From Archangium gephyra (lineage in GTDB: Bacteria; Myxococcota; Myxococcia; Myxococcales; Myxococcaceae), in contig NZ_CP011509.1 in the NCBI RefSeq assembly GCF_001027285.1, positions 4,906,501-4,970,500 of the forward strand: DNA of 64,000 bases, read 5' to 3'. Shown in pieces: positions 22,751 to 22,810 of this stretch. A model generated the notes under the pieces. That model was not told where the DNA came from. It ran no database searches and saw only the letters and a program-made list of their open reading frames with translations. The stretch's first letter is position 1, and each line of letters begins with the position of its first letter. The position numbers and the translations under genes are program-made.

Positions 22751-22793
22751 GGCGGTGAGCGGGCTGTAGAGTCCGCTCCCGCCCCTTTCTTTT
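22751..22793 (+). terminator. Terminator or attenuator immediately upstream of gltI
   Basis: Left arm 22751-22762 (GGCGG, one bulged T, GAGCGG) pairs with CCGCTCCCGCC (22773-22783) around a 10-base loop. A pyrimidine tail with TTTCTTTT (22786-22793) follows. It ends 17 bases before the gltI ATG, too close for another promoter in between, so gltI must be reached by read-through from upstream or from a promoter inside the previous gene. Confidence 0.6.
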
Positions 22794-22810
22794 CGCGAGG
22801 CCTGCCCTTC

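Follow-up and report, generated by a model that had tools for sequence, protein, structure and literature searches.

The promoter-like element of gltI in Archangium gephyra lies within a strong hairpin that separates this gene from the agmV-like gene upstream. We put the probability at roughly 0.5 that it is a gltI promoter nested in a hairpin that would fold only when both arms are transcribed by read-through of the agmV-like gene, and that would insulate gltI from such RNA. The hairpin, the promoter-like elements with their conserved spacing, the covariation of the two arms and a bias towards G-T mismatches are directly supported by the sequences compared here.

In the arrangement that we propose, the element would be the compact boundary of two transcription units. 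A housekeeping-type promoter (TTG-18-TAGAGT) would drive gltI, with its -10 at the hairpin tip and the start in the 3' arm. A polymerase arriving from the agmV-like gene would transcribe both arms, and the RNA would fold and terminate where a T-tract follows, as it does here; in distant relatives, where the hairpin reaches the ATG, translation would be hindered in place of transcription. Lacking the 5' arm, RNA begun at the nested promoter would not fold, so that gltI would be read, and the output of gltI would be set by its own promoter and not by read-through. The promoter activity, the start site, termination and insulation in this scheme are what we infer. A wider version, which we put forward tentatively and with more doubt than belief, is that of a self-insulating promoter, in which one sequence would silence RNA from outside and spare RNA from inside, terminating transcription in some genera and masking the start codon in others, with compensatory changes in 12 of the 16 scored genera.

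Genes and hairpins at the locus

The window, that is, the whole stretch of 64,000 nucleotides that was analysed, comes from a genome of 12.49 Mb in one contig. The two genes, the hairpins and the short motifs described below are all on its forward strand. The open reading frame at 22811-35077 (12,267 bp, 4088 amino acids, ATG at 22811) was identified as gltI, the homologue of agmK (MXAN_4863), because the domains of its neighbours are arranged as in gliding cluster G1 of Myxococcus xanthus, according to the accessible part of PMC3169522: FHA and TonB_C domains were found at 18100-20025, as in gltG, and GYF and zinc-ribbon domains at 35220-37307, in the position of gltJ. The length of M. xanthus GltI is given in the same part as 4132 amino acids. 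The N-terminus of GltI was matched at 96 and 94% in the same-genus loci from Archangium violaceum and A. lansinium (L032, L033). In relatives, the first approximately 250 residues of GltI also match a stretch about 7.4-7.6 kb further on, with about 30% identity and an open frame of the same length (for example G039:C16:13919-14647, G041:C14:243181-243909 and G004:C17:62120-62860), which represents an internal repeat.

The upstream open reading frame (20765-22714, putative start) occupies the place of agmV (MXAN_4864/65) in the gene order of the G1 cluster as outlined in PMC3169522, and has weak matches to TPR and clathrin repeats. In the accessible text of PMC3169522, MXAN_4864/4865 were set aside as probably not actual genes; our search of the open-access literature found the tags MXAN_4862-4864 in that paper only. 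Comparison with 11 relatives (L009, L012, L027, L030, L031, L035, L036, L039, L048, L062 and L068) showed 67-83% amino acid identity with changes mostly at the third codon position, suggesting that the agmV-like frame is a real gene in these genera. Its stop codon (22712-22714) is separated by 96 bp from the ATG of gltI, and the two genes are co-directional.

Within these 96 bp, a strong hairpin at 22748-22786 starts 33 nt past the agmV-like stop, with a stem of 22748-22765 paired to 22770-22786 and one bulge. Its minimum free energy is -36.2 kcal/mol (z = -6.66), and none of 200 dinucleotide shuffles was as strong (mean -17.8, standard deviation 2.8). The T-tract TTTCTTTT follows the stem directly (22786-22793), leaving 17 bases to the ATG of gltI. 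In these respects the locus is as the initial annotation had described it, with a GC-rich stem, this tail, the distance of 17 bases and a 12-kb gltI directly downstream. A ribosome-binding-site-like GCGAGG is located at 22795-22800, 10 nt before the ATG, and similar bases occur in part of the loci from relatives. The hairpin was not listed by a consensus terminator scan, probably because of the bulge, and a literature search in one open-access collection found no report on it.

Two other hairpins were observed nearby. A small one starts at the agmV-like stop codon (22712-22737; found by folding and as an inverted repeat), and in relatives its arms read CCCGCC/GGCGGG or CTCGCC/GGCGAG, both arms having changed together; a TTTTGC tail is frequent. 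A second terminator-like hairpin at 20052-20085, with 15 pairs followed by CTGCTTTTTG, begins 27 nt past the gltG stop and precedes the gene at the gltH position, whose start was called at 20138; a longer reading of that frame, from 20039, would span the hairpin. As stated in the accessible part of PMC3169522, deletion of gltG raised gltH RNA 4-5 fold.

The promoter-like element and the dyad in relatives

A -35-like TTGCTG (22743-22748) and a -10-like TAGAGT (22767-22772) are separated by an 18-nt spacer, and both lie within or touch the stem at 22748-22786, so that the overlap is present at the sequence level. TAGAGT forms the hairpin tip, with its first three bases in the loop and its last three paired in the minimum free energy structure. 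From the usual distance between a -10 and a start, transcription is predicted to begin at 22779-22781, within the 3' arm. A consensus promoter scan, which used the E. coli consensus, found no site at gltI.

The spacing was found to be strongly conserved. TTG-18-TAnAnT was kept, with an invariant TTG, in 35 of 35 distinct upstream sequences from closer relatives, which are related sequences and not 35 independent cases. Among the distant sequences of the family, a TTG at 18 nt was present in 1 of 17 (L089); in 17 distant loci (within L070-L091, for example L074 and L087), the hexamer is located 12-15 nt before the gltI ATG, from which a nearly leaderless mRNA would result. Outside the family, TAnAnT was found within 200 nt before the GltI match in 10 of 20 fetched loci, and all 10 sites have a TTG 17-18 nt upstream: six loci from one genus of family f3 have TTGACC-18-TATACT, two loci of f8 have TTGCCC-18 and TTGCCG-17-TATAGT, and f7 and f10 have one further site each. 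No dyad was detected at any of these 10 TAnAnT sites (z between -1.3 and 1.9). The sequences therefore suggest that gltI has a promoter-like element of the housekeeping type (sigma-70/SigA class) of its own at a conserved spacing, and that this element is probably active. For M. xanthus, a Cappable-seq dataset is available as E-MTAB-11042 (named in PMC8844925).

Because of this conserved element, we rejected the view that the stretch is an intrinsic terminator only. The element also divides the initial annotation, which had read the stretch as terminator-like, in a gap with no room for a promoter, and had proposed that gltI synthesis may be limited by attenuation. The terminator-like character is supported by the sequence in this genus (the T-tract is present in 6 of 6 same-genus loci), whereas the promoter-free gap is not, since TTG-18-TAGAGT sits in the hairpin and recurs in relatives with and without a hairpin. 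RNA begun at TAGAGT would start in the 3' arm and could not form the hairpin, so that any attenuation would act on RNA entering from upstream; its effect would be to shield gltI, not to determine how much of it is mainly made.

To examine the dyad around the hexamer, the region before gltI was fetched from the genomes of the family, f1, which we took to be Myxococcaceae; of 96 genomes, 95 had a match to the protein, although the weakest matches are probably to other repeat proteins. Rows were dropped as duplicates (L032/L033, of L003/L004), as cut by contig ends (L008, L056) or as having no hexamer in the scanned stretch (L069, L081-L084, L086 and L092; the starts of L069 and L086 were probably wrongly picked). 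Of 26 genera, 10 were not scored, namely g9, g10, g18 and g23 (no hexamer in the scanned stretch) and g11, g13, g17, g20, g21 and g22 (not fetched). Since each locus has a single candidate hexamer, none was chosen for its fold. Relative to shuffled arms, 74 of 82 loci had a dyad below z = -2 (72 of 80 once the two duplicates are removed), with at least one such locus in 12 of the 16 scored genera. The arm sequences vary between genera and yet remain complementary, and a conserved protein-binding palindrome was rejected because of this variation between genera.

The covariation was further examined by exchanging arms between genera. Native arms paired at -31.6 kcal/mol against -23.6 kcal/mol for swapped arms in 31 closer sequences, and at -22.6 against -16.6 kcal/mol in 16 distant sequences. 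The loss was clear for g1, g6, g5, g19, g26, g3, g25, g14 and g24, less clear for g4, where 11 of 30 swaps equalled the native pairing, and for g12, represented by one sequence; no loss was seen for g7, g8, g2, g15, g16 and L034. By the hexamer-centred test, eight loci have z above -2 and no dyad at the hexamer (L034, L035, L038, L065, L068, L079, L085 and L089), and the dyad is missing in 4 of the 16 scored genera (g2, g14, g15 and g16) and in the L034 genome, which is not placed in a genus. In L035, L038, L061 and L065, the best inverted repeat is shifted 5-6 nt downstream, which brings the hexamer into the paired part, and in L068 (g2) the stem is larger (-51.8 kcal/mol for the whole 103 nt), suggesting that the hairpin is kept even though its centre moves, which accounts for part of the exceptions. 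When no hexamer was presupposed, TAnAnT proved to be at the centre of the best inverted repeat in 58 of 77 distinct regions, in a scan that is blind to centres very near the ATG. Judged from these comparisons, the hairpin is under selection of its own.

Mismatches, T-tracts and competing explanations

A G-T mismatch in the stem (read on the gltI strand) still pairs in RNA and an A-C mismatch does not, whereas the two are equal for DNA. We counted 35 G-T against 7 A-C mismatches in closer relatives and 10 against 8 in distant ones (47 distinct sequences). As distinct genus-position events, the ratio of G-T to A-C was 14:2 (closer) and 9:3 (distant) at the strict alignment setting, 16:2 and 10:3 at the intermediate one, and 20:5 and 12:9 at the laxest, where the excess was smaller; these counts omit alignments scoring below 18 and are per genus and position, not per branch of a tree. 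Other, transversion-type mismatches were as common as G-T (16 closer, 14 distant, strict). The bias leans towards RNA, mainly in closer relatives, although transcription-linked C-to-T mutation (deamination) could mimic an excess of G-T.

The bias bears on the best placed of the alternatives, in which the symmetry would act in DNA, either because supercoiling extrudes a cruciform or because a protein binds the palindrome, and would control promoter opening. The centring of the best inverted repeat on TAnAnT and its persistence in distant genera with no T-tract would fit such a role; the G-T mismatches exceeding A-C, the moved centre in the four re-centred loci named above and arms that vary between genera, which speak against a single conserved protein site, make it unlikely in our judgement.

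The T-tract is less widespread than the hairpin. The A. gephyra locus has the two sequence features of an intrinsic (Rho-independent) terminator, a GC-rich stem-loop and a directly following T-rich tract. At least six T in the eight positions after the stem were found in 20 of 63 closer loci (g1, Archangium, 6/6; g6, 2/3; g19, 12/26; other closer loci, 0/28), and at least five in 50 of 63, each count being the best of nine window positions. The stems of the 17 distant loci extend to the gltI ATG, with ends from 5 nt before it to 8 nt past it, leaving no room for a T-tract before the ATG, and at most three T in eight follow the stems of distant loci, a count that additional weak pairs made less sharp. 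The sequences thus support a classical terminator in Archangium and some relatives only, and the feature common to the loci is, as far as predicted folding goes, a hairpin in RNA arriving from upstream.

These distributions weaken the possibility that most gltI transcription begins at a promoter further upstream and that the hairpin is an attenuator, with read-through setting the gltI level. The hairpin with its T-tract in Archangium and the co-directional genes 96 bp apart would suit this explanation, and a hairpin in the 5' leader of the gene's own RNA, as an attenuator requires, would be present only in RNA entering from upstream, not in RNA with the nested start. We consider it a little less probable than an action in DNA, given the T-tract in only 20 of the 63 closer loci and a promoter-like element that is conserved within the hairpin and, outside the family, without one.

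Close behind it in likelihood we place coupling instead of insulation, in which transcription from upstream would influence the gltI promoter in a mutual regulation as proposed for Salmonella tufB-secE. That the promoter-like element and the hairpin coincide would agree with coupling, and the accessible part of PMC7055797 provides a precedent of overlap that regulates expression and affects fitness; the promoter-like element of family f3, however, occurs without a hairpin. Still less probable is a hairpin that would stabilise or process the 3' end of the agmV-like mRNA with no effect on gltI, the promoter overlapping it for lack of space. Covariation of the RNA type and the start of the stem 33 nt past the upstream stop would be expected from it, but a small hairpin is already present at the agmV-like stop, and the position of the stem end at the ATG in the 17 distant loci points to gltI.

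Two controls place the dyad in a wider context. In 864 kb of the genome, 14 of 583 called genes had a hairpin with a T-tract within 150 nt of the stop, compared with 4 of 581 antisense controls, and the gltI hairpin was the second most stable of those 14; by this enrichment, the A. gephyra genome seems to use some intrinsic terminators. Such terminator-like sites are few; examples with strong hairpins and T-tracts 50-60 nt past stops are L096, L129, L107 and L120. In 1.66 Mb of the genome, the gltI dyad was the strongest of 75 upstream TAnAnT sites, 44 of which are at most 50 nt from called starts, a proximity that short gaps favour. The dyad energy differed little between tandem gaps (-10.0, 27 sites) and divergent gaps (-8.7, 17 sites), indicating that insulation hairpins are not a general habit. 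A dyad as a general habit of the promoters of this genome was likewise rejected, as there was a slight trend only (26 sites, -10.4 against -9.2, with 2 of 60 shuffles as strong; 3 of 60 for 72 sense sites and 9 of 60 for 38 antisense sites).

The second control was the promoter of rplC in closer genera (30 loci fetched of 57 matching genomes, 58 searched), where TTGAC-16-TAnATT (TACATT, TAGATT or TAAATT) was found in 23 of 30 loci. The hexamer class is the one seen at gltI, and it evidently serves a ribosomal-protein operon in this genome and in closer relatives. The rplC dyad reached z ≤ -2 in 2 of 23 loci, namely in this genome, where TTGACG-16-TACATT (L165:12510-12515, reverse strand) has a moderate dyad (z = -2.1), and elsewhere only in L195. 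This control, for closer genera, and the arm swaps both argue against a dyad that simply results from spacers rich in G and initial regions rich in C. The least credible explanation, that template switching repairs imperfect palindromes so that the symmetry persists with no function, could in principle give coupled changes of the arms but is very hard to reconcile with a dyad in 12 of the 16 scored genera, the G-T bias and nothing comparable at the rplC promoter.

Meaning and relation to known systems

If a nested, insulated promoter is the correct reading, a spacer of 96 bp would uncouple gltI, which encodes a 4088-residue part of the gliding machinery, from the other genes of its cluster, and this would explain an expression level of its own for a very costly protein. 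Promoter and terminator would be fused so tightly that the promoter's own transcript escapes the terminator, an arrangement that could be searched for genome-wide and tested with few mutations.

In IS10 and IS50, hairpins silence read-through transposase mRNA. The gltI element would be similar in having a hairpin only in RNA from outside, which hides the translation start; these are mobile elements, whereas gltI is a chromosomal motility gene, and in the genera that have a T-tract its hairpin would more probably act by termination. The virion RNA polymerase of phage N4 uses hairpin promoters, the phage enzyme reading hairpins in DNA. At gltI the promoter elements are within a hairpin as well, but nothing there indicates that the hairpin is needed for promoter recognition.

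The closest precedents are chromosomal. As described in the accessible part of PMC7055797, inter-operon overlaps of terminator and promoter in Salmonella (tufB-secE and others) regulate expression and are reported as conserved, with an effect on fitness shown for tufB-secE. At tufB-secE, as at gltI, the terminator of the upstream unit and the promoter of the next are in the same short stretch; as far as the accessible text goes, the -10 at the hairpin tip, the covarying arms and the persistence of the hairpin without a T-tract set gltI apart. In E. coli, the frd terminator is the ampC attenuator, and the ampC promoter precedes the hairpin, being located within the final gene of frd (PMC6045580, in its accessible part). 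There too one hairpin ends the upstream operon and precedes the downstream gene, with the promoter of that gene near, but ampC RNA contains the hairpin and gltI RNA from the nested promoter would not. The same source describes TERM 264 between nlpD1 and penA of Burkholderia pseudomallei, a hairpin of -35.7 kcal/mol that terminates in reporters and attenuates penA. It resembles the gltI hairpin in being very stable and in lying between co-directional genes. According to that text, however, no promoter is recognizable at this place in the wild type and one arises next to the terminator by mutation, whereas the gltI element is conserved and inside the hairpin.

With the precedents from Salmonella, E. 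coli and Burkholderia, the kind of element is already known, and we would class that of gltI, from its sequence features, as a probable variant of terminator-promoter overlap and not as a proven attenuator. It differs from them, to the extent that we could compare, in the -10 at the hairpin tip, the covariation of the arms between genera and the retention of the hairpin without a T-tract; the covariation of a hairpin around a -10 across 12 of the 16 scored genera is unusual.
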